Positions 2,854 to 22,705 of a DNA stretch of 64,000 nucleotides are shown here, piece by piece. Origin of the DNA: Rhodoferax ferrireducens T118 (lineage in GTDB: Bacteria; Pseudomonadota; Gammaproteobacteria; Burkholderiales; Burkholderiaceae_C); contig NC_007908.1 of NCBI RefSeq assembly GCF_000013605.1, forward strand, positions 1,798,001 to 1,862,000, given 5' to 3'. The translations under genes and the position numbers were made by a program. The notes beneath the pieces are model-generated. The model saw only the letters and a list, made by a program, of their open reading frames with translations. It made no database searches and was not told the DNA's origin. Within the stretch, counting starts at the first letter, position 1; every line of letters starts with the position of its first letter.

Positions 2854-4269
2854 TCATTTGCCAGCGTTCACGCCACCCAGCACCACCGTCACCATCCTGT
2901 CTGGCTGCAGCCTGCGCTGAAATGCGGTCTTGATGTCTTTGGCCGTGACCCTCGCCACCTGCTGGGTCCAGGTTTCCAGATAGTCCAGCGGGAGCCCGTT
3001 CCAGGCGATGTTGGCAACGTTGTCGAGCAATTTGCCGTTGCTGTCGATGCGCAGGGCAAAGCCACCGATCAGGTTGTCTTTGGCGGCTTTGAGTTCGGCC
3101 GCGGTCGGGCCGTGGGCGACAAAATTGGTGAGCACGTCGCGAGACACCTGCACCGCCTGCTCGGCCTGGTCGGGCCGGGTTTGCAGGCCCAGTGTGAACG
3201 CACCGGCATGCAGACCGGGCGCGAAGTAGCTGTACACGCTGTAGCTCAAACCCCGCTTTTCGCGGACCTCGTTCGTCAGGCGCGAGACAAAGCCGCCACC
3301 GCCCAAAATGTAGTTGCCCACCGTCAGCGCAAAGTAATCGGGATCATTGCGCTTGAAACCGGGTTGTCCGATGAGCACATGGGCCTGCGCGGAGTCGAAT
3401 GAAATCTGCTTGACGACGGGCTTGTCCAGCGGCACCACCTCCGCCACGGTCGGCAGCGCCGGGCAGGCGGCGTCCGCGGTGGGCAGGCGCGCCAACAACT
3501 GCGTCACCAACGCTTCGGCCTGGGCCCGGTTGACCGCTCCCACCAGCGTCACCTTGGCCCGGCACGGGGCAATCAGGCGGGCATGCAGCGACTTCATATC
3601 CGACACGCTGATGCGCGCCAAGGTGGCCTCTGTCATCTCAAAGCCATAGGGGTGCGGGCCGTAGACTGCCGCTGCGAAGGCGCGATTTGCCAGCGTTGCC
3701 GGGCGGGTGTTGGCTTCCTTGATGGCGGCGTTCAGGGTTTCGCGCTCGCGCTGCCAGATCGCCTCGGGGAAGGCGGGCTCACCAAGTTGGCGGGCCGCGA
3801 GTTGCACCGCCCGGGCCAGCAACTCCGGGTCGGTGAGTGAGCGCAGCGAAAAACTCATGCGGTCGCGGCTGGCACCGGCGTGAAACGAGGCACCCAGGTC
3901 CGCCCAGGCTTCACTCAAGGCATTCTCGTCCAGGGCGGGTTCGGTGGCGCCAGCGCCCGCTGCATTGCCCGGACCTGCCAGAACGCCCTTGCCGGTCATG
4001 CTGGCGCTGACGCTGGCCAGCCCGGCCTGGTCGGCAGGGTCACGCCGACTGCCGGCGTCAAAGTCGATTTGCACATCCAGCATCGGAATGCCGTGGCTCT
4101 GCACCAGGTAGACTTGCGCGCCGGAGGCTTGCGTCCAATGTTCAATGGGAATGCCGGCCTGCACCGGATTTATAAGAAATAGAGCTGTAGCCCCCGTCCA
4201 TGCTGCCCAAGCAGCTATTTTTTTTATAGTAATCATGAGATGTGCTTTGATCTGTGTCAGGTGCTTCAT
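2854..4269 (-). CDS. Secreted M16 peptidase-like protein without the zinc motif
   Basis: An M16 (insulinase/pitrilysin) family protein of about 471 residues with a signal peptide ending near NPVQAG. The HxxEH zinc motif is absent. The C-terminal half keeps the substrate-binding segment GGGGFVSRLTNEVREKRGLS and the R/Y pair. This is the usual non-catalytic partner of two-gene bacterial M16 systems. The start is set by a TGATG overlap with the stop of the upstream catalytic subunit, implying translational coupling; an alternative in-frame ATG is at 4236. Much of the signal-peptide region is encoded by a copy of the dispersed repeat described separately. Periplasmic location is inferred. Confidence 0.9.
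   Translation of the reverse strand: MKHLTQIKAHLMITIKKIAAWAAWTGATALFLINPVQAGIPIEHWTQASGAQVYLVQSHGIPMLDVQIDFDAGSRRDPADQAGLASVSASMTGKGVLAGPGNAAGAGATEPALDENALSEAWADLGASFHAGASRDRMSFSLRSLTDPELLARAVQLAARQLGEPAFPEAIWQRERETLNAAIKEANTRPATLANRAFAAAVYGPHPYGFEMTEATLARISVSDMKSLHARLIAPCRAKVTLVGAVNRAQAEALVTQLLARLPTADAACPALPTVAEVVPLDKPVVKQISFDSAQAHVLIGQPGFKRNDPDYFALTVGNYILGGGGFVSRLTNEVREKRGLSYSVYSYFAPGLHAGAFTLGLQTRPDQAEQAVQVSRDVLTNFVAHGPTAAELKAAKDNLIGGFALRIDSNGKLLDNVANIAWNGLPLDYLETWTQQVARVTAKDIKTAFQRRLQPDRMVTVVLGGVNAGK
4171..4231 (-). repeat. Dispersed repeat, copy A, forming a signal-peptide coding segment
   Basis: Read on the minus strand the segment contains AATAGCTGCTTGGGCA, a short variable stretch, then TGGACGGGGGCTACAGCTC, the conserved core of a repeat seen in at least nine other places in this window. 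It lies in the 5' end of the non-catalytic M16 gene and encodes the hydrophobic run IAAWAAWTGATALFL of its signal peptide. The reading frame is the same as in copies B and C. Confidence 0.8.
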
Positions 4270-5798
4270 CAATGCCGGGCGCCCGCTGGGGGCGTGCGCC
4301 GGATGCGGGTTTTGTCCAGCGGCTGCGGCAACAACACGGCCACGGTCAACTGGTCATCGCCAAAATAGCGCTGTGCCACGTCCTTGACCTGCTCCGCGGT
4401 GACCGCACGCAAGCGCTCGATCAAAAGCGCGTCCGCGTTCAGCGGCAGCCCCTGTACCCAGTTGCTGCCCAGCTCCTGCGCCTGGTTGAAGACCGAATCG
4501 AGCTTGTAAACCTCGCTCGCCACCCATTGGGTCTTGACGCGCGCCAGCTCCGCCTCAAGCACACCGTCGCGCGCTACGCGCGCGACTTGGGCGCGTAGCG
4601 CGAGCTCGACTTGCTCGGCCGTCTTGCCATTCGAGGGCACGCCTACCAGCGAGAACAACTGCGGCCCACGACCCCGCAGGCCGTTGTCGGCGCCGACGCT
4701 GTCGGCGACACGACCCTCGCCCTGGGTCAAGGCGCGCTCCAGCCGGGCACCGCTGTAGCCGTCCAGTACGGCCGCGAGCACGGTGAGCGCCAGCGCGTCA
4801 GCGTTCTCTTTTTTTTCATCCAAAGACTTCAGGCTCGGCACCTTGAATGCCAAACTCACATACGCTTGTTCAGCGGGCGCCTTGAACGCCAGGCGTTTGA
4901 GGCCAACCTGTTCAGGTTCCTGCTGCGGCTTGCGCTCTGGCACGGCCCGTGCGGGCAAAACACCATAGTATTTTTCAGCCAGTCGATGCACCTGCGCCAC
5001 ATCCACATCACCGGCCACGACCACCGCCGCGTTGGCCGGCACATACCAGCGTCGGTAAAACGCCCGTGCATCCGCTGATGTCAAGGCCTCCAGGTCGCTC
5101 ATCCAGCCGACAACGGGCCGGCGGTAGGGCGATGCAACAAAAACAGCCGCGTTGAGCGCTTCATGCAACAGGGCGCGTGGGTTGTCTTCGGTGCGCAGGC
5201 GGCGCTCTTCCTTGACCACTTCCAGCTCTTTTTTGAACTCGCCATCAGGCCACTGGTTATGGGCAAAGCGGTCGGCCTCCAGCTTCATCACTTCTTCCAG
5301 CCGCGCGGCGGGAATCTGTTGGTAAAAGCCGGTGTAATCCTTGGTGGTAAAGGCATTCTCGCGCCCGCCCAGGGCCGCGACCCGGCGCGAGAACGCACCG
5401 GCCGGCACGGTCGCTGTACCTTTGAACATCATGTGCTCCAGCACATGCGCCACGCCGGAGGTGCCGTTCACCTCGTCCATGGCACCCACCCGCACCCACA
5501 GCATGTGGACGGCAGTGGGCGCGCGTCGATCGGGTTTGACGATGACGGTCAAGCCATTGGCCAGGGTGAATTGTTCCACCGGGCTCGGGGTTTGCGCGTG
5601 AGCCGTCAGGCCGCCCAAAAGCAACAGGCCGTACCAGGGCAAGCGCTGCCACACAGCACGCGGACGGGGACTGGAGGGGCCCTGCAGGCGTGGTCGAACT
5701 GACAGTTGCGCCCAAGACGTGACGACTGCGCGGAGCGAAAAGCAGAAAAAATACTGGTATATCAAGCGCATGGGCACAGGGGAGGTGAGTCGTTTCAT
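4269..5798 (-). CDS. M16 family zinc metallopeptidase, catalytic subunit
   Basis: The protein carries the inverted zinc motif HVLEH (HxxEH, near residue 120) followed about 75 residues later by the second glutamate region (EVMKLEADRF), as in active M16 peptidases. A hydrophobic segment WYGLLLLGGLTAHAQ near residues 55-69 looks like a Sec signal, so the long N-terminus given here is probably too long and the true start may be internal (for example methionine 10 at 5771 or later). Total length 509 residues; family members are about 430-470. It is followed directly by the zinc-less partner through a TGATG overlap. Likely a periplasmic heterodimeric protease. Confidence 0.9.
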   Translation of the reverse strand: MKRLTSPVPMRLIYQYFFCFSLRAVVTSWAQLSVRPRLQGPSSPRPRAVWQRLPWYGLLLLGGLTAHAQTPSPVEQFTLANGLTVIVKPDRRAPTAVHMLWVRVGAMDEVNGTSGVAHVLEHMMFKGTATVPAGAFSRRVAALGGRENAFTTKDYTGFYQQIPAARLEEVMKLEADRFAHNQWPDGEFKKELEVVKEERRLRTEDNPRALLHEALNAAVFVASPYRRPVVGWMSDLEALTSADARAFYRRWYVPANAAVVVAGDVDVAQVHRLAEKYYGVLPARAVPERKPQQEPEQVGLKRLAFKAPAEQAYVSLAFKVPSLKSLDEKKENADALALTVLAAVLDGYSGARLERALTQGEGRVADSVGADNGLRGRGPQLFSLVGVPSNGKTAEQVELALRAQVARVARDGVLEAELARVKTQWVASEVYKLDSVFNQAQELGSNWVQGLPLNADALLIERLRAVTAEQVKDVAQRYFGDDQLTVAVLLPQPLDKTRIRRTPPAGARH

Positions 5799-5827
5799 AG
5801 AATGCTGTGATTCTAAGAAGTTGCCAA

Positions 5828-6922
5828 ATGTTCAGTTTTTTCAAAAAGAAACCTCCTCCCACCCCTGTATTGCCAAAGTCACCCGACGCGGCGACTGAGC
5901 CAGCGGGCGCGGCAACACCCATCCGCAGTGGTTCCTTGATTGGCAGCGCCCTGGTCACGCCGATTGACATTCCCCTGCCCGCCAGTGTGCCGCCTGAGCG
6001 GCAAAAGTGGCTGGACAAACTTAAAGCAGGCCTGGGCAAGACGGCCAACAGCATCTCCGGCGTTTTTAGCGGTACCCGGATTGACGAGGCGCTCTACGAA
6101 GAGCTTGAAGGCGCGCTGCTGATGGCCGATACGGGGGTCGCGGCCACCCAGTACCTGCTCGATGATTTGCGGCGCAAGGTCAAGGAGAGTGGCATTACCC
6201 ACCCGGTGGCCCTGAAAAACATTTTGGTGGCAAGCCTCACCGAATTGCTGCTGCCACTGGAAAAGCCGCTGGTCATTGGGCAGCACAAGCCCACCGTCAT
6301 CATGGTCACTGGTGTTAATGGTGCGGGCAAAACCACCTCGATCGGCAAGCTCACCCAGCACCTGGCGATGCACGGCGCTAGCGTACTGCTGGCCGCTGCG
6401 GATACTTTCCGGGCGGCCGCGCGTGAGCAACTGGGCGTTTGGGCGACGCGAGCGGGCACCAGCACCGACACACCCGACCACAGCGTGGAGATCATCAGCC
6501 AGCAGGGTGGCGACCCGGCGGCCGTGAGCTTTGATGCGGTCAGCGCTGGCAAAGCGCGTGGCAAAGACGTGGTTTTGGTCGATACCGCCGGACGCCTGCC
6601 AACCCAGCTGCACCTGATGGAAGAACTGCGAAAGATCAAGCGCGTGGTGCAAAAAGCCGACGCCACGGCACCGCATGAAATCCTGCTGGTGATCGACGGC
6701 AACACCGGTCAAAACGCCTTGACGCAAGTGAAGGCATTTGACGAGGCGCTGGGCCTGACGGGCCTGATCGTCACCAAGCTGGACGGCACCGCCAAGGGCG
6801 GCGTGCTGGCTGCCATAGCGCGGGAGCGGCCGGTGCCGGTGTACTTCATCGGCGTGGGCGAGCAGCTTGAAGACCTTGAGACGTTTAATGCCCGTGAGTT
6901 TGCGCAGGCACTGTTGGCATGA
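5828..6922 (+). CDS. ftsY: Signal recognition particle receptor FtsY
   Basis: SRP-type GTPase of 364 residues from MFSFFKKKPPP. The NG domain shows G1 GVNGAGKTTS (near residue 160), the DTAGRLPTQ G3 region, TKLDGTAKGG (G4) and the closing GVGEQLEDLETF. FtsY docks ribosome-SRP complexes to the SecYEG translocon at the inner membrane. The preceding acidic A domain is short and proline/alanine rich, as in many betaproteobacteria. I chose the ATG at 5828 over an in-frame earlier ATG at 5807 because the sequence MFSFFKKK is the common FtsY N-terminus. Divergent from the M16 genes. Confidence 0.97.
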   Translation: MFSFFKKKPPPTPVLPKSPDAATEPAGAATPIRSGSLIGSALVTPIDIPLPASVPPERQKWLDKLKAGLGKTANSISGVFSGTRIDEALYEELEGALLMADTGVAATQYLLDDLRRKVKESGITHPVALKNILVASLTELLLPLEKPLVIGQHKPTVIMVTGVNGAGKTTSIGKLTQHLAMHGASVLLAAADTFRAAAREQLGVWATRAGTSTDTPDHSVEIISQQGGDPAAVSFDAVSAGKARGKDVVLVDTAGRLPTQLHLMEELRKIKRVVQKADATAPHEILLVIDGNTGQNALTQVKAFDEALGLTGLIVTKLDGTAKGGVLAAIARERPVPVYFIGVGEQLEDLETFNAREFAQALLA

Positions 6923-6998
6923 CGCCATAGGCTTTTTGCCATCTGCTTATCCGCAGTGACCCTCTAGGTGGGCGGCTTCAACCCGCTAAACTGCGCGC

Positions 6999-8030
6999 AT
7001 GTCACAACTCGTTGATAAGTTAGCCGACCTGACCGACCTTCGGGATCGCGGTGCGCTCGACCTCGCCCTGGTCAGTGCCATTCATGACTTGTTGCAGCCG
7101 CAGACCGCAGCGATCTGTCGCGTTGTCGGTGAAGCCGGCAATGAGCGCTGGTTGACCACCGCCCAGATCAAGGCCGATCAACGGGTGCCCGTATTTGACT
7201 CGGCTTGGTCCGATTTGCTGGCACTGCCACGTTTGGCTGAGTACCCGCTGCGCCAGCAGGCCGGCGTCGGCAAACTGGTGATGCAGTCAAGGCTATATCC
7301 CGGCATCACGGTATTTCCGGTGAGCAGCAGCCCGGGTACGATCGGTGTGCTTGAAATCGCCACCCAGGAGCCGCTGTCTGAGGAACTGAGTCGATTGGTC
7401 AGTGGCGTGCTGCGCCTGTACCTCAATTTTCAAAGCCTGCTCGACTATGGCGAGCGCGATGCACTGACCGAGCTGCTCAATCGCAAGACCTTTGATGGTG
7501 CCTTTCTCAAGGCAACGCTGGCGCAGCAAGTCGCCGTCGATGGCGCGCCCGACAAGCGGCGCGACACCAGCTGCAGTGGCAGCTTCTGGCTGGCGATGAT
7601 TGACATTGACCATTTCAAGCATGTCAATGACAACTTCGGGCACCTCATCGGCGACGAAGTGCTGCTGCTGCTGGCACGCTTGATGCGCGTCAGTTTCCGC
7701 TTTCACGACCAGCTCTACCGTTTTGGGGGGGAAGAGTTTGTGGTGCTGATGCGCTGCAATGGCGAGGCAGAGGCGGCTGCCGCGCTGGAGCGGCTAAGAA
7801 CCAACACCGAAAATTACCTGTTTCCCCAGGTTGGCAGCATCACCATCAGCATCGGTTTTTCTGAAATCAAAACCGGCGACACCCCCAGTGGCGCCTTTGA
7901 GCGCGCCGACAAGGCGGTTTACTATGCCAAGGAGCATGGCCGCAACCAGGTGTGCAGCCATGCCGCCCTGGTTGCCAGCGGTGTGCTGGTGGAGCAGGCC
8001 GCCAACGTCGGCGACATGGAATTGTTTTGA
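6999..8030 (+). CDS. GGDEF-domain diguanylate cyclase (GGEEF active site)
   Basis: The C-terminal domain has all catalytic marks: MIDIDHFKHVND (metal and guanine binding), GGEEF at residues 243-247, and an RxxD inhibitory site (RFHD) five residues before it. The enzyme would make c-di-GMP from two GTP. The N-terminal 150 residues resemble a GAF-like sensor without obvious cofactor ligands and are shared with a second protein at 57635-58708, its degenerate paralogue. No membrane segment, so cytoplasmic. It stands 76 bp after ftsY and 62 bp before the esterase gene. Confidence 0.92.
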   Translation: MSQLVDKLADLTDLRDRGALDLALVSAIHDLLQPQTAAICRVVGEAGNERWLTTAQIKADQRVPVFDSAWSDLLALPRLAEYPLRQQAGVGKLVMQSRLYPGITVFPVSSSPGTIGVLEIATQEPLSEELSRLVSGVLRLYLNFQSLLDYGERDALTELLNRKTFDGAFLKATLAQQVAVDGAPDKRRDTSCSGSFWLAMIDIDHFKHVNDNFGHLIGDEVLLLLARLMRVSFRFHDQLYRFGGEEFVVLMRCNGEAEAAAALERLRTNTENYLFPQVGSITISIGFSEIKTGDTPSGAFERADKAVYYAKEHGRNQVCSHAALVASGVLVEQAANVGDMELF

Positions 8031-8035
8031 AACCT

Positions 8036-8080
8036 TGTGGGACAGACCACAGTTACCCGAAGCGAACAAGCTCTGTCCCC
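8036..8080. repeat. REP-like GGGACAGACCAC / CTCTGTCCCC motif pair
   Basis: The intergenic region holds GTGGGACAGACCACAG followed 20-odd bases later by the inverted partner CTCTGTCCCCAACT. A related arrangement (GCTGTCCCC ... GGCTCTGTCCCCAACA) precedes the gene at 55193. The inverted GGGACAG/CTGTCCC arms can form a hairpin. I recall similar GGGGACAGACC sequences as dispersed repeats in betaproteobacteria, but this cannot be checked here. Confidence 0.45.
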
Positions 8081-8092
8081 AACTGATTACAT

Positions 8093-8764
8093 ATGACAAA
8101 CACCCTGCTTCCCCGCATAGAAATTGAATCGGCCCCGCAGCCCACGGCTGCCGTTATCTGGCTGCACGGTCTGGGCGCCGATGGCAACGACTTTGCCGCT
8201 CTGGTGCCCGAGCTGGACTTGCGCGCCTGCCCACCGATCCGTTTTGTCTTTCCACACGCGCCCTCTATGCCGGTGACCCTCAACGGCGGCTATGTCATGC
8301 CGGCCTGGTATGACATTCGCGGCACCGATCTGGTGAGCCGTCAGGACGTGGCCGGCATCCAGAAGTCCGCGCTGGCAATTGCCGCACTGATCGAGCACGA
8401 GGCGGCGCGCGGCATCCCGTACCAGCGCATGGTGCTGGCGGGCTTCTCGCAGGGCAGCGCCATGGCGCTACACACCGGTTTGCGCTTCAAGCAGCGGCTG
8501 GCAGGCATCATGGCGCTGTCGGGCTACCTGCCGCTGGCAGATACCTTTGCCGCCGAGCGCAGCGCCGCCAATGCCTGCACGCCCGTCTTCATGGCGCACG
8601 GCAGCCAGGACCCGGTGGTGGCGCCGGCCCGGGGCGAAGCCTCGCGCGATCTGCTGCTCAGCCTGGGTTACCCGGTGCACTGGCACAGCTACCCGATGCC
8701 GCACAGCGTGCATCCGCGCGAAGTGGCCGACATTTCGCTTTTCCTGGCCGACGTGCTGGGCTGA
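8093..8764 (+). CDS. Alpha/beta-hydrolase carboxylesterase (phospholipase/carboxylesterase family)
   Basis: A 223-residue compact hydrolase starting MTNTLLPRIEIESAP. Key features are the oxyanion-hole region WLHGLGADGNDF near residue 25, the nucleophile elbow GFSQGS with Ser119, the acid in HGSQDPVV near residue 168, and the C-terminal catalytic histidine in YPMPHSVHPREV near residue 205. This is the carboxylesterase II family (EstB of Pseudomonas, acyl-protein thioesterase-like), acting on short acyl esters. No signal peptide, so cytoplasmic. Physiological substrate unknown. Confidence 0.92.
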   Translation: MTNTLLPRIEIESAPQPTAAVIWLHGLGADGNDFAALVPELDLRACPPIRFVFPHAPSMPVTLNGGYVMPAWYDIRGTDLVSRQDVAGIQKSALAIAALIEHEAARGIPYQRMVLAGFSQGSAMALHTGLRFKQRLAGIMALSGYLPLADTFAAERSAANACTPVFMAHGSQDPVVAPARGEASRDLLLSLGYPVHWHSYPMPHSVHPREVADISLFLADVLG

Positions 8765-8842
8765 GGATGGTCTGAAAGTGTCTTGTGTTGTTTTTGCCTG
8801 CCGCTAACATAGCGCACAGAGTTCAATTTACAGGAGCGCGTC

Positions 8843-9460
8843 ATGCCAGTGGTCGTGGTTGCCAATCCAAAAGGCGGCGTGGGCAAGTCCACTCTGGCCA
8901 CACATATCGCAGGTTATTTCGCGTCCCGCGGACACACCGTGATGTTGGGCGATGCGGACCGCCAGCAGTCCTCACGCTTGTGGCTGGGCTTGCGCCCGGC
9001 GGCCGCACGTCCCATCGCCACCTGGAGCGTGAGCGCCGACCTGATCGCCAAACCGCCCAAAGGCACGACCCATGTGGTGCTCGACACGCCTGCGGGCCTG
9101 CATGGCAGGCGTTTCAATGATGTGATGAAGCTGGCGGACAAGGTGATCGTGCCCTTGCAACCCAGTGTTTTTGATATTTTTGCCACGCGGGCGTTTCTGG
9201 ATCAACTGCGACAGAACAGGCACCATGACAAATTGCAGATTGGCCTGGTGGGCATGCGGGTGGACGCGCGCACCATCGCCGCTGACAAACTGCATGAATT
9301 TGTGGACTCCCTGGGCCTACCGGTGTTGGGTTACCTGCGTGATACGCAAAACTATATTCATTTGGCAGCCCGTGGCCTGACCCTGTTTGATGTGGCGCCC
9401 GGCCGGGTAGAAAAAGACCTGGCGCAGTGGCAGGCGATAGGCGAGTGGCTGGAAACTTGA
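8843..9460 (+). CDS. ParA/MinD-family P-loop ATPase, no ParB partner
   Basis: A 205-residue ATPase with the deviant Walker A KGGVGKST at residues 10-17, the switch-I-like segment GDADRQQSS (aspartate in place of the common DxDPQ), and LDTPAGLHG as Walker B. These mark the ParA/MinD/Soj superfamily of positioning ATPases. No ParB-like or MinE-like gene is adjacent; it sits alone between an esterase and a MaoC gene, so its cargo is unknown. RBS aggag seven bases before the ATG supports the start. Confidence 0.88.
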   Translation: MPVVVVANPKGGVGKSTLATHIAGYFASRGHTVMLGDADRQQSSRLWLGLRPAAARPIATWSVSADLIAKPPKGTTHVVLDTPAGLHGRRFNDVMKLADKVIVPLQPSVFDIFATRAFLDQLRQNRHHDKLQIGLVGMRVDARTIAADKLHEFVDSLGLPVLGYLRDTQNYIHLAARGLTLFDVAPGRVEKDLAQWQAIGEWLET

Positions 9461-9536
9461 TTGGCTGAGCAGGTGAGCGGGCTGCTTTGTCGCTCATCTG
9501 ACAAGTGACTTGCGCGCGCGCCGCTACAGTGGCTGC

Positions 9537-9992
9537 ATGAAAACTTTTCAAACTCTCTCCGAACTCTCAAGCTTGATCGGCCAGGAAGTTGCCGTGAGCG
9601 ACTGGATCACCATCACACAAGAACAGGTGAACCAGTTTGCGCAAGCCACTGGCGACCATCAGTGGATTCATGTGGACCTCGAGAAAGCCAAGGCGGGGCC
9701 ATTTGGGGGCACCATCGCGCACGGGTTTTTGACGCTGGCGCTGATTCCCCGCTTTTTTGAGTCCTCTCTGACCATTGTGCAAACCCGCCTCAGCGTGAAC
9801 TATGGGCTGAACAAGGTTCGTTTTACGGCCCCGGTGCCGGTGGGTAGTCGCCTGCGCGCCCGCATGAAACTGCTCAACAGTGAACCCATCGACCAGGGTG
9901 GCGTTCAAATGACCTGGCAGGTGGCGATTGAGCGTGAGGGCGCGCCCAAGCCGGTGTGCGTGGCCGAGTCAGTCGCGCGGCACTACCCGTGA
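9537..9992 (+). CDS. MaoC-like (R)-hydratase / dehydratase
   Basis: The protein of 151 residues starts MKTFQTLSELSSLIGQEV. It has a single hot-dog domain with the R-hydratase signature FAQATGDHQWIHVD, where Asp and His are the catalytic pair, and GTIAHGFLTLALIP. These enzymes hydrate trans-2-enoyl-CoA to (R)-3-hydroxyacyl-CoA, linking beta-oxidation to polyhydroxyalkanoate synthesis. I prefer the ATG at 9537 to an upstream in-frame start because the residues before it (RARRYSGC) do not look like protein sequence of this family. Its 3' end overlaps the convergent trmL gene by 24 bp. Confidence 0.92.
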   Translation: MKTFQTLSELSSLIGQEVAVSDWITITQEQVNQFAQATGDHQWIHVDLEKAKAGPFGGTIAHGFLTLALIPRFFESSLTIVQTRLSVNYGLNKVRFTAPVPVGSRLRARMKLLNSEPIDQGGVQMTWQVAIEREGAPKPVCVAESVARHYP

Positions 9993-15243: not shown

Positions 15244-15843
15244 ATGACTCTACGGCGTGAAAACATCAGAATGGTCGGCAAACTGTTTGTCGTGGCAGTG
15301 GGCATGTTCGCATTCGGTTACGCGCTGGTTCCCATTTACAAGGCTGTGTGCGAGGCCACGGGTGTCAATATTCTCGCGCTGGGTGACAGCGACGTGCCCG
15401 GTGCCAAGGCGACATTGCCTGCCAATACCCAGGTTGACGCCAGTCGAACCATCACGGTCGAGTTCGACGCCAACGCGCGCGGCCCTTGGGAGTTCAAGCC
15501 GGCTCAGCGATCGCTGCAGGTGCATCCCGGTGAAATGGCCACGGTGATGTACGAGTTTCAAAATGTGCAAAACAGGCGGATGTCAGCGCAAGCCATTCCA
15601 AGCTATGCGCCGGTGCAGGCCAGCACCCATTTCAACAAGTTGGAGTGTTTTTGCTTCAAGCAGCACACCCTGGAGCCGGGCGAAAAGAAAGTCTGGCCGG
15701 TGGTGTTTGTGATTGATCCCAAGTTGTCCAAAGATGTAAAGACCATCACGCTGTCCTATACCTTTTTTGAGGTAGGGGGTAAGACACCGGCGGCTCCTTT
15801 GGCTGATGCGACCGGTCAGATCGGCATCGGAGCTGGGTCATGA
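15244..15843 (+). CDS. ctaG: Cytochrome c oxidase assembly protein CtaG (Cox11 family)
   Basis: A 199-residue protein with one N-terminal membrane helix (residues 17-35, FVVAVGMFAFGYALVPIY) and a periplasmic immunoglobulin-like domain. It carries the copper-binding motif LECFCFKQHTLEPGE near residue 136 (CFC) typical of Cox11. It delivers copper to the CuB site of subunit I. Directly downstream of the small assembly gene and overlapping the next gene by 4 bp, so translationally coupled. Confidence 0.96.
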   Translation: MTLRRENIRMVGKLFVVAVGMFAFGYALVPIYKAVCEATGVNILALGDSDVPGAKATLPANTQVDASRTITVEFDANARGPWEFKPAQRSLQVHPGEMATVMYEFQNVQNRRMSAQAIPSYAPVQASTHFNKLECFCFKQHTLEPGEKKVWPVVFVIDPKLSKDVKTITLSYTFFEVGGKTPAAPLADATGQIGIGAGS

Positions 15844-16061
15844 GTGAGCCGGGGCACGAGACCAAACCGGTAGCGTCCGGGGCGTTTTTTCGCACCATCA
15901 AGATGGTGGCCTGGTCGCTGCTGGGGATCAGAAAGAATAGCGAGTTGGAGAAAGATGCGGCGCAAGTCAGTCCGATTCACATCATCGTGGTGGGGGTTGT
16001 GACGATCATCATTTTGGTCGTTGGCCTGATCGTGCTGGTGAACGTGGTGGTTGCCAAATAG
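15840..16061 (+). CDS. DUF2970 family single-pass membrane protein
   Basis: A 73-residue protein with the amphipathic segment FFRTIKMVAWSLLGIRKNSELEKD and one C-terminal transmembrane helix (HIIVVGVVTIIILVVGLIVLVNVVV). This is the DUF2970 family, recurrent between ctaG and coxC in betaproteobacteria. It is inferred to be a membrane accessory of aa3 oxidase assembly; no biochemical role is known to me. The ATG overlaps the ctaG stop (ATGA). Confidence 0.88.
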   Translation: MSEPGHETKPVASGAFFRTIKMVAWSLLGIRKNSELEKDAAQVSPIHIIVVGVVTIIILVVGLIVLVNVVVAK

Positions 16062-16116
16062 GGTCGATCCTGGCGTCTCATGAAGATTAAACAGAACTGG
16101 AAAGAATGGAGCTGAT

Positions 16117-16998
16117 ATGAGTTCAACAATCGGGGCTGCAACCCCGCACTATTTCGTGCCCGGCCCCTCGCGGCATCCCTTTTTTGCGGCTGTGGGCCTG
16201 TTTTTTGTCTTGCTGGGCGCCAGTCAGTGGATCAATGGCGCGGAGTGGGGCAAGTACTCGTTTTATTTTGGCTTGCTGTGGTTTGCCGGCGTGCTGTACC
16301 AGTGGTTCAGTGAGTCGGTGGGTGAGAGTGAAGGTGGCCAGTATGGGCACAAGGTTGACTCGTCTTACCGCTGGGCCATGAGCTGGTTCATCTTCTCCGA
16401 AGTGATGTTCTTCGGGGCGTTCTTCACCGCCTTGTGGTGGACTCGCGCCCATTCAATACCCGCCTTGGGCGGTATCGAGAACGGCTTGCTCTGGCCCGAC
16501 TTCAAAGCCGTGTGGCCGAGTCTGGCCGCTGGCGTGACCGGTTCACCGGCGGACATCGTGGAGCCGTTCCAAACCATGACACCCTTTTGGTTGCCCACCA
16601 TCAATACCGCGATCCTGCTGAGCTCCGGCGTGACACTGACCATTGCCCACCATGCCTTGATCGGCGCCCATCGCAGCAGGGCGGTGGCCTTCATGTGGCT
16701 CACGGTTTTGCTGGGTATCGTGTTCCTGCTGGTGCAAGGCTATGAGTACTACCACGCGTATCACGAGATGAACCTGAAGCTGACATCAGGCGTGTATGGT
16801 TCCACTTTTTTCATGCTGACCGGTTTTCACGGCTTCCACGTGTTTGTGGGCATGTTGATGCTGCTGTTCATCACCTTGCGACTGCAACGAGGTCATTTCA
16901 CGGCAGAGCGGCATTTCGGATTTGAAGGGGCCGCCTGGTACTGGCACTTTGTCGACGTGGTGTGGCTTGGCCTCTACACGCTGGTCTATTGGCTGTAA
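16117..16998 (+). CDS. coxC: Cytochrome c oxidase subunit III
   Basis: A 293-residue protein with seven hydrophobic helices. Family marks include HYFVPGPSRHPFFAAVG at the N-terminus, WAMSWFIFSEVMFFGAFFTALWW (conserved Glu in the third helix), the run FFMLTGFHGFHVFVGMLML and the C-terminal AAWYWHFVDVVWLGLY. Subunit III stabilises proton uptake in A-type oxidases. 55 bp separate it from the DUF2970 gene; a strong terminator follows at 17023. Confidence 0.98.
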   Translation: MSSTIGAATPHYFVPGPSRHPFFAAVGLFFVLLGASQWINGAEWGKYSFYFGLLWFAGVLYQWFSESVGESEGGQYGHKVDSSYRWAMSWFIFSEVMFFGAFFTALWWTRAHSIPALGGIENGLLWPDFKAVWPSLAAGVTGSPADIVEPFQTMTPFWLPTINTAILLSSGVTLTIAHHALIGAHRSRAVAFMWLTVLLGIVFLLVQGYEYYHAYHEMNLKLTSGVYGSTFFMLTGFHGFHVFVGMLMLLFITLRLQRGHFTAERHFGFEGAAWYWHFVDVVWLGLYTLVYWL

Positions 16999-17022
16999 GC
17001 TACCGTGCGGCTGTGAAAAGGG

Positions 17023-17044
17023 AGGCACCGCAGGGTGCCTTTTT
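17023..17044 (+). terminator. Rho-independent terminator after coxC
   Basis: AGGCACC-GCAG-GGTGCCT gives a perfect 7-bp stem with a four-base loop, followed by a T run, 24 bp after the coxC stop. Confidence 0.85.
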
Positions 17045-17067
17045 GATTGCCGCAGCGCTTGATCCGT

Positions 17068-17289
17068 TTACTGCCCTGCAGAAATGCCGCTCGGCTGGAT
17101 CAGCCCCAGTTTCCAGGCCAGCAGGATGGCGATAAACAGCGCAATCGAAAGCCCCACCCGCAAGGCCAGCGCCAGCGCCATTTTTTGGCTTCTGGATTTT
17201 CCTTTTGAATCGCTCTTCATCATGAAAAATAGGGCTGTTCCCAGGCTGATGACAATGGCCGCAAATGCAAGAATGACAAAGTATTTCAT
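17068..17289 (-). CDS. Twin-transmembrane protein (DUF2909 type)
   Basis: A 73-residue protein with two hydrophobic helices, VILAFAAIVISLGTALFFMM and VGLSIALFIAILLAWKLGLI, joined by a basic lysine/serine loop. This matches the short twin-TM proteins (DUF2909) that sit near surf1 and coxC in Burkholderiales. It is encoded opposite to the cox genes, 15 bp from the SURF1 start, so the two share a divergent promoter region that must lie partly within coding sequence. Function unknown; an oxidase-associated role is inferred from context only. Confidence 0.8.
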   Translation of the reverse strand: MKYFVILAFAAIVISLGTALFFMMKSDSKGKSRSQKMALALALRVGLSIALFIAILLAWKLGLIQPSGISAGQ

Positions 17290-17304
17290 CGACTGGATTA
17301 TCTC

Positions 17305-18027
17305 GTGAACGCGGGCTGGCGGTCCTGGCTGATCACTGCGCTTGCGCTGCTGTCAATGGCCGGCACGCTGGCGCTCGGGCGTTGGCAATTGTCGCGGGCC
17401 GCGCAGAAAGTCGCCATGCAGGCCGGCATGGAGGCCAAGTCGACGATGTCAATCCTGGACGGTCGAGTCCTGGCGGCGCGCGCTGATCCTGCCCTTGAAC
17501 TGCACCGACGTGTCGCGCTGCGGGGCCAGTGGATTCCCGAACGTACGGTGTTTCTGGACAACCGCCCGATGAATGGCCGGACCGGCCTGTATGTGGTGAC
17601 GCCGATGCGGCTGGAGGGCAGTGCAGCTGTGGTGCTGGTTCAGCGCGGTTGGGTGGCGCGCAACTTCATGGATCGCAGCCATTTGCCCACGATTGAATCA
17701 CCGGCTGGTGTGCGGGAGATTGTGGGCCGTATTGCCCCGCCGCCGGCCAAGTTATACGAGTTGAGCGGCTCGGATACCGGCCTCATCCGGCAAAATATCG
17801 ATTTGGCTGGCTTGGCCGTCGAGACGGGTCTGGCGCTCCTGCCGGTGTCGGTTCAGCAAACGGGCGCAGCCGGCGACGGCATGTTGCGTGACTGGCCACA
17901 GCCTGCAGTCGGCGTGGAAAAGCATTACGGTTATGCTTTCCAATGGTTTGCCTTGAGCAGCCTGATTGCGATTCTTTATGTCTGGTTCCAAATTGTTAGA
18001 CGATTCATTTACCCGCGCCGCGCCTGA
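17305..18027 (+). CDS. SURF1 family cytochrome oxidase biogenesis protein
   Basis: A 240-residue protein with an N-terminal helix (SWLITALALLSMAGTLALGRWQL) and a C-terminal helix (YAFQWFALSSLIAILYVWFQIV) flanking a periplasmic domain. It has the SURF1 hallmarks LGRWQLSRAAQK, LRGQWIPERTVFLDNRPMNGRTGLYVVTP and VLVQRGWV. Surf1 assists heme A insertion into oxidase subunit I. The start is GTG at 17305; no ATG upstream is in frame close by. Confidence 0.93.
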   Translation: MNAGWRSWLITALALLSMAGTLALGRWQLSRAAQKVAMQAGMEAKSTMSILDGRVLAARADPALELHRRVALRGQWIPERTVFLDNRPMNGRTGLYVVTPMRLEGSAAVVLVQRGWVARNFMDRSHLPTIESPAGVREIVGRIAPPPAKLYELSGSDTGLIRQNIDLAGLAVETGLALLPVSVQQTGAAGDGMLRDWPQPAVGVEKHYGYAFQWFALSSLIAILYVWFQIVRRFIYPRRA

Positions 18028-18073
18028 AGCATCCCAGCATCGGGCCAACGGTCACGGCGACCAACCGCTGGGC

Positions 18074-18760
18074 ATGACGGTTCACTCCCTGCCTTCACCG
18101 GCGCGCGTGATGGACGCGCAGGCCCGGCGCACCGCCACTGGACGCTGGAAGATGCTGGTCGTGCTGCTGGTTTGTGCTGCACCGGTGCTGGCCTCCTATT
18201 TGACTTTCTATGTTTTCAGGCCGGAAGGGCGGCGTAATTTCGGTGAGTTGGTTGACCCGCAGCGCCCCTTGCCGGAGCAGACCGTGGTCAGCTTGAGCGG
18301 GCAGGCCAGCAGCCTGAAGGCGCTGAAAGGGCAATGGCTCTTGTTGAGCGTGGCCAACGGTGCCTGCGATGAAGTCTGTAGCCGCCATTTGTACCTGCAA
18401 CGCCAGTTGCGCGAGGGTTTGGGCAAAGACAAAGAGCGGGTGGACTGGGTCTGGTTGATCTCCGACGCCGCCCCCGTGCCCGAGCGCTTGCTGCCTGCCT
18501 TGAAGGACGCCACGGTACTGCGCGCCGATGGGCAGGCACTCTCCAACTGGCTGGAACCGGCCCGCGGCCATCGGCTGACGGAGCATCTGTATTTGGTAGA
18601 CCCGTTGGGCAACTGGATGATGCGGTTTCCGGCCAATCTGGACCTGGCCAGCGCGGCCAAGGTCAAGCGGGACCTGGAGCGGCTGTTGCGCGCCTCCAAC
18701 TCGTGGGATCAGCCGGGGCGCGCGTCTTTGACTGAGGGGAGGGGTGAAAATGCCAAGTAG
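18074..18760 (+). CDS. SCO-like thioredoxin-fold membrane protein with CxxxC
   Basis: A 228-residue protein, MTVHSLPSPARVMDAQARRT onward. One membrane helix (MLVVLLVCAAPVLASYLTFYVF) is followed by a periplasmic domain in which GACDEVCSRH provides a Cys-x3-Cys pair where SCO proteins have CPDVC, and HLYLVDPLGNWMMRF resembles the closing strand of a thioredoxin fold. It lies between surf1 and ctaA. It is probably a divergent copper chaperone or thiol reductase for CuA, but it lacks the clear SCO histidine spacing. The ORF extends upstream into surf1; ATG 18074 is chosen because it leaves the normal short N-terminus. Confidence 0.75.
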   Translation: MTVHSLPSPARVMDAQARRTATGRWKMLVVLLVCAAPVLASYLTFYVFRPEGRRNFGELVDPQRPLPEQTVVSLSGQASSLKALKGQWLLLSVANGACDEVCSRHLYLQRQLREGLGKDKERVDWVWLISDAAPVPERLLPALKDATVLRADGQALSNWLEPARGHRLTEHLYLVDPLGNWMMRFPANLDLASAAKVKRDLERLLRASNSWDQPGRASLTEGRGENAK

Positions 18761-19946
18761 CAACGCCATGACGGTGCAAGCCCTTTACGATCTGTCGCCG
18801 CTGGTGCAGATGATGTTTGGCGGTGCCGTGCTGGCCCTGGCGCCCATGGCGTGGGTGTGGTTTCGGCATCGGCGCGCTTCTCCCTTGGGTCGGGTTCAGG
18901 CGTTGACGCTGTTGACCCTGTTTCTCACCTTTGATCTGGTCATGTTTGGGGCTTTTACTCGCTTGACCGACTCCGGGCTGGGCTGCCCGGACTGGCCCGG
19001 TTGCTATGGCAAGGCCAGCCCGGTTGGGGCGCATGCTGCGATTGCGGCCGCCCAAAGCGCCATGCCCACTGGCCCGGTGACGTCCGGCAAAGCCTGGGTA
19101 GAAATGATTCACCGCTATCTGGCCACCAGCGTTGGTGTGTTGATCCTGGTGCTGACGGCCGTGGCCTGGCTGGGCCGCAGCGCTGGCGGGCGCAACATGC
19201 AGGTGCAGCCTATCAGCCCGTGGTGGCCCACTCTGACTTTGCTCTGGGTCTGTGTTCAGGGTGCTTTTGGCGCGTTGACCGTCACGATGAAGCTTTTTCC
19301 CGCCATCGTTACCCTGCACTTGCTCGGTGGCCTGGTTCTGTTGGCCCTGCTGTGCGTGCAGGTTGTGCAGTTTGCGCAACTCGAAGGCAAGGTCGCACCG
19401 GTTGCCCTTTCCCCTGGCTTGCGCCGGTTGCTGGGGCTGTCTTTTGTATTGCTGGTGCTGCAAGCCGCTCTGGGGGCATGGGTCAGCACCAATTACGCCG
19501 TGTTGGCCTGTACCGATTTTCCCAAGTGCCAGAGCAGTTGGTGGCCGCTGATGGACTTCTCGGAAGGTTTTGAGCTCTGGCGCCCACTCGGTTTCACGGC
19601 GGCTGGCGAGTACATCGGCTTTGCGGCCCTGACGGCCATTCACTATGTTCACCGCTTGATGGCGTCCCTGGTATTGGCGTTGCTCGGTGTGTTGGCCTGG
19701 CGGTTGAACCGCGTGACGGCACTACGCAACCCGTCGCGCTGGATCGCTGCACTGGTTGGACTGCAGCTGGCGACGGGCCTGAGCAATGTGGTGCTGGACT
19801 GGCCTTTGCTGGCTGCCGTTTTGCACACCGGCGGCGCGGGCGCACTGGTGCTTGTTCTGACGTGGACCGTGGCCGCGAGTCGCACGGGCAGCAGCGCCAG
19901 GGTGTCGGTCGTGCCAGATTTCACAGCCGTGAGACAGACCGCATGA
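18750..19946 (+). CDS. ctaA: Heme A synthase (CtaA/COX15 family)
   Basis: The polytopic protein has about eight membrane helices and is about 398 residues long, the size of the COX15-type. Conserved pieces include [23 protein letters not shown] near residue 70 (cysteine pair and the glycine-rich loop), the heme-ligand region [17 protein letters not shown] and [17 protein letters not shown]. It oxidises the heme O methyl to a formyl, making heme A. Start: ATG 18750 after a GAGGGGAGGGG stretch; GTG 18744 is in frame just before. It overlaps the preceding gene by 11 bp. Confidence 0.95.
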
Positions 19947-20839
19947 GCGTCCATGTTCTGAGTGTTGAGGTCTCGGTTATCAAGCAGTTTTATGCGCTGA
20001 CCAAACCGCGCGTGATTCAGTTGATTGTGTTTTGCGCCTTGATCGGCATGGTGCTGGCCGTGCCGGGCTTGCCGACCTGGGCCGAGCTCCAACTGGCCTT
20101 GTTGGCTTGCCTGGGCATCTGGCTGGTGGCGGGCGCAGCGGCGGCCTTCAATTGCGTTGTCGAAAAAAGCATCGACGCCAAGATGAAGCGCACGGCCTGG
20201 CGGCCGACCGCAAGGGGCGAACTGGCCGATTGGCAGACGCTGCTGTTTTCGGCCGTGTTGTGCGCGGCGGGCTCCATACTGCTGTATTTTTGGGTCAACC
20301 CGCTGACCATGTGGCTGACCTTTGCCACCTTTATTGGTTATGCGGTGGTGTACACCGTGATTCTGAAGCCACTGACGCCGCAAAACATCGTGATTGGCGG
20401 CGCCTCCGGCGCCATGCCGCCGGTGCTGGGCTGGGCCGCCATGGCGGGCGACGTCGGCCCGGAAGCGCTGATTTTGTTTCTGATTATCTTTTTGTGGACG
20501 CCGCCGCATTTCTGGGCACTGGCCTTGTACCGCGTGGAGGACTACCGCAAGTCGGGCCTGCCGATGCTGCCGGTGACACACGGCAATGAGTTCACCCGCT
20601 TGATGGTGCTGCTCTACACCTTCATTTTGTTTGCTGCCTGTTTGATGCCGTATGTCTACGGCATGAGTTCCTGGCTTTACCTGATTGCCGCCGTGGTTTT
20701 GAATCTTGGCTTTTGTCTGTATGCCTTCTATCTCTGGCGTGATTATTCGGACTTGCTGGCCCGCAAAACCTTTCGCTTCTCACTGATCCATCTGAGCCTG
20801 CTGTTTGCCGCCTTGCTTCTGGATCACTATCTGCTTTGA
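19943..20839 (+). CDS. ctaB: Protoheme IX farnesyltransferase (heme O synthase)
   Basis: A UbiA-family prenyltransferase of 298 residues with about nine membrane helices. The first aspartate-type motif [19 protein letters not shown] (N-x3-E-x2-D-x3-K/R type) is near residue 72, preceded by [17 protein letters not shown]. It farnesylates heme B to heme O, the substrate of CtaA just upstream. The ATG overlaps the ctaA stop (ATGA), so the two are coupled. An upstream in-frame extension to 19862 lies inside ctaA and is rejected. Confidence 0.97.
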
Positions 20840-20845
20840 TACCCC

Positions 20846-21451
20846 ATGAACAAACGAAATGCTCTTAAATTAATAGCTATTTACGCCCTATTGACGGGGG
20901 CTATCGGCCTTATTCCTGCCTGTTCCAAACAGGGGCCGAGTTTTGCCGGAATTGACCTCACCGGTGCCGATTACGCCAAAGATTTCGCCTTGACCGACCA
21001 CAATGGCCAGCCCAGGACCCTCAAGGATTTTGCCGGCAAGGTGGTGGTGATGTTCTTCGGTTATGTGCAGTGCCCGGATGTCTGCCCCACCTCGATGGCT
21101 GAACTGGCCGAGGTGAAGCGCTTGTTGGGCAAGGATGGCGAACGCGTGCAGGGTTTGTTCGTCACGGTCGATCCAGCGCGTGACACCCCCGAGGTGCTCA
21201 AAGGCTATATGGCAGCCTTTGATCCGACCTTTCTGGCGCTCTACACCACGCCGGAAAAACTGGCTGTGCTGGCCAAAGACTACAAGGTCTATTACAAAAA
21301 AGTGGAGGGTCCCACGCCCACCAGCTACTCCATGGATCATTCGGCGGGCAGCTTCGTGTACGACACGCAGGGCAAGTTGCGTCTGTATAACCGCTATGGC
21401 AGCGGCGCTGCGCTGCTTGCGGCCGACATCAAGCTCTTGCTGCAGCAGTAG
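20846..21451 (+). CDS. SCO1/SenC family copper chaperone
   Basis: The 201-residue protein begins MNKRNALKLIAIYALLTGAI with a lipoprotein-like end of the signal (GLIPACSK). The thioredoxin fold carries the copper motif FFGYVQCPDVCPT (CxxxC) near residue 76 and the later histidine in MDHSAGSFVYD near residue 169, which together bind copper for the CuA centre of subunit II. It starts six bases after ctaB and ends the oxidase gene block. Residues 5-21 are encoded by a copy of the dispersed repeat. Confidence 0.95.
   Translation: MNKRNALKLIAIYALLTGAIGLIPACSKQGPSFAGIDLTGADYAKDFALTDHNGQPRTLKDFAGKVVVMFFGYVQCPDVCPTSMAELAEVKRLLGKDGERVQGLFVTVDPARDTPEVLKGYMAAFDPTFLALYTTPEKLAVLAKDYKVYYKKVEGPTPTSYSMDHSAGSFVYDTQGKLRLYNRYGSGAALLAADIKLLLQQ
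20860..20909 (+). repeat. Dispersed repeat, copy C, within the SCO1 signal peptide
   Basis: The plus strand reads GCTCTTAAATTAATAGCTAT, a short variable part, then TTGACGGGGGCTATCGGCC. It encodes LKLIAIYALLTGAIGL of the SCO1 signal sequence, in the same frame as copies A and B. Confidence 0.8.
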
Positions 21452-21493
21452 GCCGCGTGATCGACGTTAGGCCGTTGCTGGGGGGCCAAAAGG

Positions 21494-21666
21494 CGCGACC
21501 CGCTGGATGAGGGCCTGCTGCTGTTGCAGCCGTGGGTACGGGACCCGGATGAAAACATTCGCCGCTTCAATGGGTCGGTCAGCTGGGCGAGCGCTGGCTG
21601 GTCGAGTCCGATGCGCCCCAGACCCGCTGCATTTTGCGCCGCGCCCTGCGTTTGCTATCGAAATAA
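21494..21666 (+). pseudogene. Relic of a DNA-alkylation-repair (HEAT-repeat) gene
   Basis: Two short peptide segments in different frames resemble one family. The first (21494-21577) reads RDPLDEGLLLLQPWVRDPDE and then NIRRF; the second (21577-21666) reads QLGERWLVESDAPQTRCILR and then RALRLLSK before a stop. Both resemble AlkD-like HEAT repeats, but start, most repeats and frame continuity are gone, so this is a decayed fragment. The last codons and stop (TTGCTATCGAAATAA) overlap a half copy of the dispersed repeat. Family assignment is from memory of the pattern and is tentative. Confidence 0.4.
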
Positions 21667-21673
21667 TAGCAAA
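21651..21673 (+). repeat. Half copy of the dispersed repeat
   Basis: TTTGCTATCGAAATAATAGC matches only the AT-rich inverted-repeat half (GCTATnnAAATAATAGC) of the dispersed repeat; the GGGGGCTA half is absent. Confidence 0.45.
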
Positions 21674-21712
21674 CTGTGTCCCGTGGACGGTGGCTGGTGC
21701 CGAATTCTGCAA

Positions 21713-22705
21713 TTAATCGGGTTGGATGCCCCGCAGGGCAATCACGCCGCCCAGCAAGGCGGTATCGAGCTGGATGCGTTTGGCCAAGCCCTCGGCCGAA
21801 CTGCCCACCACCTGCCAGCCTTGCTGGAACAGTTTCTGGCGCATGTCGGGCGCGCGGGCGATGGTGCTGAACAGGGCGGACAGTCTGGCAACCACCGGCT
21901 GGGGCAGCGAGTTCGGCGCGGCGATGGCGTTCCAGATTTCCAGATTGAAACCCTGCACACCGGCCTCCGCCAGGCTGGGCAGTTCCGGCACCAGCGTGCT
22001 GCGTCCGCTGGACGTCACGCCGATGGCGCGCAGCTTGCCCGCTTTGATATGCGCCATGGCCAGCGCCGGCGGCAACATGGACAGCTGCAACTGGCCGCCG
22101 AGCATGGCGTTGGCAACCTGCGGATAGCCGGGGTAGGGCACATGCACCGGCTTGATCTGGGTCTTGCTCTTGAGCAGCTCCATGCCGATGTGGCCCACGG
22201 TGCCCACGCCCGGCGAGCCATAACTCCAGGTGTCCCCCGCTTGGCGCGCCGCCGCCAAAAAGTCCTTGGCGCTCGCGCCGGGCGAGCCGACCGGCGCCGT
22301 CAACACCAGGGGCGACACGCCGATCAGGCTGACGGGCGTGAGGTCTTTCAGCGGATCGTACGGGAGCTTCGGGTTGAGCAGCTTGGCGATCGTCAGGTTG
22401 CCATTGATCATGAGACCAAGGGTGTGGTCATCGGTGGCGTGGGCGACGTAGTCGGCGGCGATATTGCCGCCGGCGCCCACCTTGTTTTCCACGATCACGA
22501 GCTGGCCCAGCGCCTTCGCCAGCGGTTCGGCGAGGGTGCGCGCGGTCAGGTCAGGTGACGAACCGGCCGGAAAGCCGACGACGATGCGCACCGTCCTGGT
22601 CGGCCAGGCCTGCACAGGCTTGGCGTCTTTTTGGCCTATAGCCCCCGTAGCTACTGCGCAAGCAGCTATAAAAATAGTAGTAATTTGAAGCAGTTTGCGG
22701 TGCAT
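21713..22705 (-). CDS. Bug/TctC-type tripartite tricarboxylate receptor
   Basis: A 330-residue periplasmic binding protein. After a signal peptide the mature part has the Bug-family marks WPTRTVRIVVGFPAGSSPDLTAR and KAGAGGNIAADYVA-like text (here NKVGAGGNIAADYVAHA) and the C-terminal EGLAKRIQLD. These receptors capture small carboxylates for TctAB transporters or act alone in sensing; the family is greatly expanded in Burkholderiales. No TctA/B genes are adjacent. Residues 9-25 of the signal (TTIFIAACAVATGAIGQ) are encoded by a dispersed repeat copy. Confidence 0.92.
   Translation of the reverse strand: MHRKLLQITTIFIAACAVATGAIGQKDAKPVQAWPTRTVRIVVGFPAGSSPDLTARTLAEPLAKALGQLVIVENKVGAGGNIAADYVAHATDDHTLGLMINGNLTIAKLLNPKLPYDPLKDLTPVSLIGVSPLVLTAPVGSPGASAKDFLAAARQAGDTWSYGSPGVGTVGHIGMELLKSKTQIKPVHVPYPGYPQVANAMLGGQLQLSMLPPALAMAHIKAGKLRAIGVTSSGRSTLVPELPSLAEAGVQGFNLEIWNAIAAPNSLPQPVVARLSALFSTIARAPDMRQKLFQQGWQVVGSSAEGLAKRIQLDTALLGGVIALRGIQPD
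22632..22680 (-). repeat. Dispersed repeat, copy B, within the Bug receptor signal peptide
   Basis: The minus strand reads ACTACTATTTTTATAGCTGC then TTGCGCAGTAGC and ACGGGGGCTATAGGCC. It encodes IFIAACAVATGAIG, in the same reading frame as copies A and C. Confidence 0.85.

Follow-up and report, generated by a model that had tools for sequence, protein, structure and literature searches.

Signal-peptide DNA shared by unrelated genes

The window analysed here is a 64,000-nt stretch of the genome of Rhodoferax ferrireducens T118 (NC_007908.1, positions 1,798,001 to 1,862,000), in which the 5′ ends of the genes for an M16-family peptidase, a SCO1/SenC protein and a Bug-type (TctC) receptor contain related DNA. 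This raises the question of whether a dispersed repeat has supplied the signal-peptide cores of these exported proteins and by what route it came to do so. The three sites, designated copy A (M16), copy C (SCO1) and copy B (Bug), belong to a long-established family of dispersed chromosomal repeats, each about 66 nt in length, which is common to several Comamonadaceae genera. The preferred reading, to which a probability of roughly 0.6 is assigned, is that of an ancient protein-invading repeat, much like the Rickettsia palindromic elements (RPE), that has sometimes been taken over as a signal-peptide core. The phenomenon is real and more general than first noted.

With up to three mismatches allowed, the core pattern is found at four sites in the window (A, B, C and a further copy, D) and at none in 100 shuffled versions, and nine window copies align without gaps over 75 columns. 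The window holds seven copies beyond A, B and C, D included (Table 1). The original prediction placed A, B and C in a single family, each copy at the 5′ end of the gene for a different, unrelated exported protein; this is borne out by the alignment, the shuffles and the Pfam assignments of the host proteins, and the coordinates it gave agree with those of the profile within a few bases. The shared orientation and reading frame were also correctly read, as all three copies are translated in sense frame 1: KKIAAWAAWTGATAL, LKLIAIYALLTGAIG and IFIAACAVATGAIG.

Size and anatomy of the repeat family

The genome comprises 4,969,784 bases in two contigs, the main replicon C2 (4,712,337) and a second replicon C1 (257,447). 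A profile search of 133 systematic stretches together with the window, amounting to 2.724 Mb of C2, identified 314 copies at E ≤ 0.01; 39 of the 353 profile matches had E values between 0.01 and 1 and were excluded before counting. No match was returned from the reversed version of the same 2.724 Mb. Scaling up from this sample gives about 540 copies for the whole of C2. The 140 kb sampled from C1 contained no copy, against approximately 16 expected at the density of the main replicon. Copies per 20 kb are distributed close to a Poisson process (mean 2.28, variance 2.22) and 160 of the 314 lie on the plus strand. A replication-polarised site of the KOPS or Chi type was rejected from this strand balance and from inspection of 24 bins, which exhibited no obvious polarity or ori-ter gradient. 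Across the family, repeat matches at E ≤ 0.001 were found in 25 of 60 genomes, the present one included, with at most 81 candidates scored per genome.

Two regional observations were made in the same sample. The sampled part of C1 has a GC content of 54%. Between approximately 0.98 and 1.18 Mb of the main replicon, the 80 kb sampled contained one copy where about nine were expected, and this region is possibly acquired DNA without the repeat.

The conserved stretch of about 66 nt has the approximate consensus aaTTGCTATTAAATTAATAGCTACTTACGCAGATTCGACGGGGGCTAGAGGCCAATTTcgTATAAA and an information content of 55.7 bits, with positions that range from 98–100% conserved to almost free. Indels are absent from 310 of the 314 copies. 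Pairwise identity averages 53% and reaches 82% in the closest pair, a spread slightly above the independent-column expectation (standard deviation 0.075 vs 0.056; maximum 0.82 vs 0.79). The columns are near-independent, the maximum mutual information being 0.077 compared with a shuffled maximum of 0.079 (20 shuffles, subset of pairs). A short dyad, GCTAY-N7-RTAGC, includes a variable pair that does not covary (Fisher p = 0.79). The consensus ends, TTGCTAT and TATAAA, judged by eye, are not the terminal inverted repeats of a miniature inverted-repeat transposable element (MITE). At Rfam gathering thresholds the sole match in the window is a riboswitch elsewhere (Table 1), and the repeat matches no curated family. 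Given the 82% maximum identity, the independent columns and the non-compensating dyad, no recent duplicates, clear subfamilies or hairpin selection are seen. A recent MITE burst is ruled out by the lack of any copy pair more than 82% identical, and a hairpin or RNA element by the non-covarying short dyad and the absence of an Rfam match. Because near-identical copies are absent, the repeat is probably no longer multiplying in this genome.

Much of this anatomy could also be produced by molecular drive in the manner of DNA uptake sequences, in which the motif spreads by substitution and recombination with no insertion and proteins tolerate few of its frames. Near-independent columns without clear subfamilies, occurrence on both strands with near-random counts per stretch, almost invariant core positions beside free ones, the empty sample of the second replicon and the small net length change at several internal copies all fit such a process. 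DNA uptake sequences, which spread by uptake, are much shorter motifs of 9–12 nt; 55.7 bits over 66 nt far exceeds this, and a gap of 17–18 residues in TlyA of genera without a copy, described below, also speaks against drive. The uptake sequences of Pasteurellaceae and Neisseriae do resemble the present repeat in their hundreds to thousands of copies and in a known intragenic bias of orientation relative to the reading frame (PMC2346458). On balance this explanation is unlikely.

Location within genes and reading-frame bias

Gene calls and the signal-peptide rule were taken from our own scripts and not from Prodigal or SignalP. By these calls, intergenic DNA holds 151 of the 314 copies and gene interiors 101, with a further 32 at the 3′ ends of genes and 30 assigned to an N-terminal class. 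Overall the repeat avoids coding DNA (81% of the sequence, but 101 of the 314 copies), and the spacers of convergent genes are favoured, accounting for 43 of the 143 intergenic copies with two neighbours compared with 151 of 1135 gaps of at least 60 nt. The hosts of internal copies include TrmB, TlyA, ThiL, PurL, RlmD/RumA and aminopeptidase N, as identified by Pfam and solved relatives. In-frame presence within many unrelated protein genes, a feature of the RPE, is also found here (101 of 314 copies internal).

Of the 101 internal copies, 87 use one frame per strand, namely sense frame 1 (39 of 46 sense copies) or antisense frame 1 (48 of 55 antisense copies). Among the 151 intergenic copies, antisense frame 0 is open in 63 and antisense frame 1 in 53, yet internal copies use them 2 and 48 times (p = 1.8e-14), so stop codons alone are insufficient to account for the bias. 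The surviving readings are open and Ala-rich, AIxxIAxxAxxTGAxGQF in the sense and NxxLAPVxxAQxAIxxIA in the antisense direction. The frame bias that had been proposed is therefore real and strong, but it belongs to intragenic copies generally and not to signal peptides in particular.

Copies at N-termini and in signal peptides

Hand inspection of the automatic N-terminal class accepted 15 of the 30 copies as true N-termini. These are A, B and C, eight further signal-peptide copies (Table 1) and four copies outside signal peptides (L158, L139 twice and L169), whose hosts are an EF-Tu-like GTPase (putatively CysN), a DUF934 protein, CinA and an EamA transporter. The other 15 were set aside as internal to longer genes, as having doubtful starts or as weak matches (L089, L193, L128, window 54515, L186, L149, L204, L215, L113 at 13384, L085, L168, L178, L121, L148 and L192); two of these, L149 and L121, could also be leaders.

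By this hand count 11 of the 15 true N-terminal copies lie in signal peptides, nine in the sense and two in the antisense direction. The liberally estimated base rate is 566 of 1978 genes, or 28.6% (p = 4e-4); with the window excluded the count is 8 of 12 (p = 0.007). The automatic count is weaker, at 14 of 28 (p = 0.014); restricting it to E < 1e-5 gives 12 of 21 (p = 0.006), or 8 of 17 (p = 0.08) once the window is excluded. It omitted genes shorter than 300 nt or less than 200 nt from the start of a stretch, and L200 and L133 are thus without a matched base rate. N-termini as such are not clearly enriched (15 of 131 in-frame genic copies vs 8.9% expected, p = 0.18), and general N-terminal targeting was rejected for this reason. 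The expected bias of genome-wide copies towards the N-termini of exported proteins therefore holds for the share of signal peptides among true N-termini, but is unclear for N-terminal position itself. Signal peptides are a minor share of the repeat family.

Age of the leader copies and probable constraint on their DNA

Of the 11 leaders, those of A, B and C were followed into relatives. Of the 80 M16 loci fetched, 9 have repeat-like DNA at the corresponding leader (E ≤ 0.001), the carriers being Rhodoferax, Ramlibacter, Polaromonas and Acidovorax by name and one metagenome-assembled genome labelled Proteobacteria. SCO1 matches were obtained in 59 genomes, and the loci compared were those of the 30 best, the present genome among them; of the 29 from other genera, 8 have repeat-like DNA at the leader (E ≤ 0.01). 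For Bug, this was found in 8 of 20 loci of the same genus (E ≤ 0.01). As orthologues retain similar leaders with repeat-like DNA, the three window copies look old and inherited. The comparison with orthologues did not come out wholly in favour of the original prediction, which had named the same signal peptide without repeat-like DNA in orthologues of distant genera as a refuting outcome; a few orthologues (SCO1 L228, L233 and L235; M16 L012) have similar leaders without repeat-like codons.

These ages bear on the proposal that, in this lineage, a mobile-like repeat made or replaced signal peptides in many independent events and landed there by preference. Repeat DNA does form leaders, 11 by hand count, and exported proteins are over-represented among the true N-terminal copies, less so in the automatic count. 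Such a course is improbable, however, as near-identical copies are absent, A and C are common to other genera and B is found within the genus, N-termini are not generally enriched, and the frame bias is general.

Codon usage was compared in 29 SCO1, 28 M16 (of 47 loci) and 17 Bug (of 20) orthologues, a rare codon being one that makes up less than 15% of the codons for its amino acid. Rare codons were kept more often in the repeat than in the rest of the gene for SCO1 (61/132 vs 41/321), M16 (56/147 vs 78/686) and Bug (34/65 vs 9/36). The codon ATA, which represents 3.5% of Ile codons, was kept in 13/16, 10/15 and 7/10 orthologues with Ile. The effect is seen at conserved motif positions, and rare codons that end at weak positions are seldom kept (SCO1 TTA 1/6 and CTA 1/9; M16 GCA 0/6). 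From these comparisons, the DNA core of the repeat seems to be conserved beyond its translation.

Convergence, by which AT-rich or Ala-rich leader DNA would merely resemble the repeat, is highly implausible. Signal peptides are indeed hydrophobic and loosely constrained, the orthologues with similar leaders but no repeat-like codons are what convergence would give, and chance could account for a few weak matches (L148, L121); shuffled and reversed DNA returned no matches, and the rare codons ATA and GCT are kept at core positions.

The repeat could further be a chromosomal DNA site with a function of its own, maintained by long-term selection, whose requirement at the DNA level would have shaped some 100 or more proteins per genome, giving loops and linkers in core enzymes and export signals at N-termini. 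Relatives would then keep rare codons in the leaders because the DNA, and not the peptide alone, is selected. This is a tentative possibility, less likely than not.

One separate observation concerns the other end of the SCO1 gene. In five SCO1 loci from five genera (L223, L236, L241, L243 and L244), weak antisense repeat matches occur at about 2040–2095, one shared place near the SCO1 3′ end.

Insertion or replacement

Lengths of host proteins were compared between genomes with and without the copies. For TlyA, 22 full-length matches (own genome apart) were available out of 50 genomes with a match. Five genera without a copy at the site (G014, G002, G048, G051 and G057) are short by 17–18 residues, with the gap located there, and two of these (G014 and G002) carry the repeat elsewhere in the genome. 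In four other genera the tlyA site matches the repeat (L277, L278, L280 and L281; E 5e-13 to 4e-3). By eye, the L276 tlyA gene may retain a remnant of the repeat that has lost its middle but preserves the two ends; the profile matches it only weakly (E 0.02 and 0.4).

ThiL was compared by net length and not at the site, with 51 of 59 lengths used, of which 4, with 1–9 repeat matches, fell outside both groups. The median net length was −15 in repeat-free genera (n = 28) and −5 in repeat-rich genera (n = 19; p = 6e-6), though these groups differ in kinship. The corresponding difference for TlyA is weak, −17 (n = 7) vs −10 (n = 13; p = 0.047), again between groups that differ in kinship. Insertion followed by trimming is tentatively proposed because of the tlyA gap and the ThiL length difference.

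Several findings weigh against an ancient inserted repeat. The length of the insertion is variable, with net TlyA differences from −20 to +5 over the 22 genomes. The copy in PepN gives a net +1 relative to a solved aminopeptidase N, gains elsewhere are small (RlmD +7 at the site, PurL +7), and repeat-bearing leaders, compared by eye, are no longer than repeat-free ones. Given this variability, replacement, or building by substitution, may instead have been at work. The lack of clear subfamilies, despite the slightly wider spread of identity, is unusual for a transposed family. No target-site duplication or transposase came to light, though no search was directed at either. Third-position identity is no higher in leaders than in the rest of the gene (SCO1 125/220 vs 1874/3417; M16 103/203 vs 4273/7708, non-carriers included), so that the two are told apart by the rare-codon comparison alone, and in the codon tests related sequences count as if they were independent. 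The few orthologues whose similar leaders lack repeat-like codons belong on this side as well.

If the repeat is nevertheless taken as an ancient invader of proteins, the following course may be envisaged. Early in the Comamonadaceae the repeat would have spread by insertion, with its surroundings trimmed later, as is best seen in tlyA and is presumed elsewhere. It came to sit in genes and spacers in both orientations, and within genes chiefly the two open Ala-rich readings survived, probably as tolerated translations retained as loops and linkers. Where a copy lay at the N-terminus of an exported protein, its hydrophobic sense translation, or occasionally the antisense one, would have become the signal-peptide core, with export predicted from the leader sequences. 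The repeat would now be silent, its mobility lost. Sites of the bacterial interspersed mosaic element (BIME) and repetitive extragenic palindromic (REP) type are bound by protein, and the core may still be constrained as DNA, most likely, by analogy, through binding of a putative chromosomal protein. The suggestion that a mobile-like repeat repeatedly made signal peptides is thus retained for the use of repeat DNA as leaders, but not for its timing, as the three leader copies look old and near-identical copies are absent.

Relation to known repeats

The RPE are likewise dispersed in spacers and in frame within many unrelated conserved genes (PMC2229807, PMC10969869). They differ in being Rickettsia elements of 105–146 bp whose ends are inverted repeats and which form long stem-loops, whereas the present repeat is a barely palindromic Comamonadaceae sequence of about 66 nt, whose short dyad lacks covariation.

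The original prediction knew of no description of signal peptides derived from a repeat; one published precedent does exist. In Yersinia, the YPAL/RU-2 element provides the signal peptide of a putative exported protein at locus YPO1552 (PMC2759123). That case concerns a single putative protein, compared with the 11 leaders counted by hand here, which include well-known families and of which three were traced in relatives.

The GTAG- and CGTC-tagged REPs share a high copy number and an occasional location inside open reading frames, and lie mostly between co-directional and convergent genes (PMC3733652). In contrast to the longer present repeat, they are palindromes of 20–40 bp, and the GTAG type is often near genes for REP-associated tyrosine transposases (RAYT). 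The beta-proteobacterial repeat element (BRE) is also chromosomal, occurs in Comamonadaceae among others and is at times inside genes (PMC3110155). It is set apart by its description: BRE is about 90 bp, has 69% GC in Bordetella and has four copies in T118, whereas the present repeat has a higher AT content and some 540 copies.

Tong, Schliekelman and Mrazek (2017) found that R. ferrireducens T118 tops the genomes analysed in its number of significant spaced motif pairs (140), and reported ATAGCT(N)22CAAAAG in Polaromonas naphthalenivorans with 125 copies, 18 of them in genes (PMC5217627). These pairs may be the same family as the present repeat. The commonest spacing in the present sample is 30 to CAAAA and not 22, and the accessible part of that paper gives no interpretation as an element or as signal peptides. 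Within the material opened, searches of the open literature returned no account that treats this repeat family as an element or derives signal peptides from it; a search by exact motif strings returned only papers that appear unrelated by title, and one on interspersed repeats in Polaromonas found none.

The family provides a countable and testable case of short repeat DNA turned into protein, including the likely export signals of SCO1, LolA, a type II secretin and an M16 peptidase. By its rare-codon signature, selection on a DNA motif could be told apart from selection on a peptide. Annotators would be warned that some Comamonadaceae leaders and loops are repeat-derived, and the family points to a putative site-binding factor that would recognise hundreds of sites on each chromosome.

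Other copies and features in the window

The features discussed are listed in Table 1. The divergent copy in the response-regulator gene encodes approximately residues 115–133, between the receiver domain (5–116) and the LytTR domain (145–243), and is read in a third frame.

Table 1. Repeat copies, host genes and other features. Positions are those of the window, except at loci designated L, which lie elsewhere in the sampled genome.
Feature	Position (nt)	Strand	Remarks
Copy A	4169..4234 (~66-nt motif); 4177..4231 (55-nt model core)	-	Predicted signal-peptide core of M16 peptidase
M16-family peptidase gene	2854..4236	-	Pfam PF05193, PF00675 (M16/M16_C); leader MITIKKIAAWAAWTGATALFLINPVQA, cleavage site by eye
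Copy C	20857..20922 (~66-nt motif); 20860..20914 (core)	+	Predicted lipoprotein signal-peptide core of SCO1
SCO1/SenC gene	20846..21451	+	Pfam PF02630 (SCO1-SenC); leader MNKRNALKLIAIYALLTGAIGLIPAC, lipobox by eye
Copy B	22620..22685 (~66-nt motif); 22628..22682 (core)	-	Predicted signal-peptide core of Bug receptor
Bug-type (TctC) receptor gene	21713..22705	-	Pfam PF03401; leader MHRKLLQITTIFIAACAVATGAIGQ, cleavage site by eye
Copy D	24057..24111	-	Intergenic by own gene calls
Divergent copy, first alignment	37388..37462	-	
Divergent copy, first alignment	39681..39755	-	
Divergent copy in response-regulator gene (46191..46931)	46534..46588	+	Sense frame 2
Divergent copy, first alignment	50238..50312	+	
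Copy in open reading frame 54306..55127 (+)	54515..54569	-	Antisense frame 1; automatic N-terminal class via a different called start
Divergent copy, first alignment	61956..62030	+	
GspD-type secretin (type II)	L180		Signal-peptide copy
ABC auxiliary lipoprotein	L216		Signal-peptide copy
LolA	L157		Signal-peptide copy
SLT_2 transglycosylase	L141		Signal-peptide copy
Small protein	L200		Signal-peptide copy
Small lipoprotein, no Pfam match	L133		Signal-peptide copy
M48 peptidase	L219		Signal-peptide copy, antisense
Cyclophilin	L113 (at 9392)		Signal-peptide copy, antisense
Thiamine pyrophosphate (TPP) riboswitch	39798..39899	+	Rfam RF00059
Short tandem array	59821..59946		12-nt period

Two minor features of the window were also noted. 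The TPP riboswitch is situated close to the divergent copy at 39681..39755, and the short tandem array lies within a long open reading frame at 58782..61814 on the minus strand.

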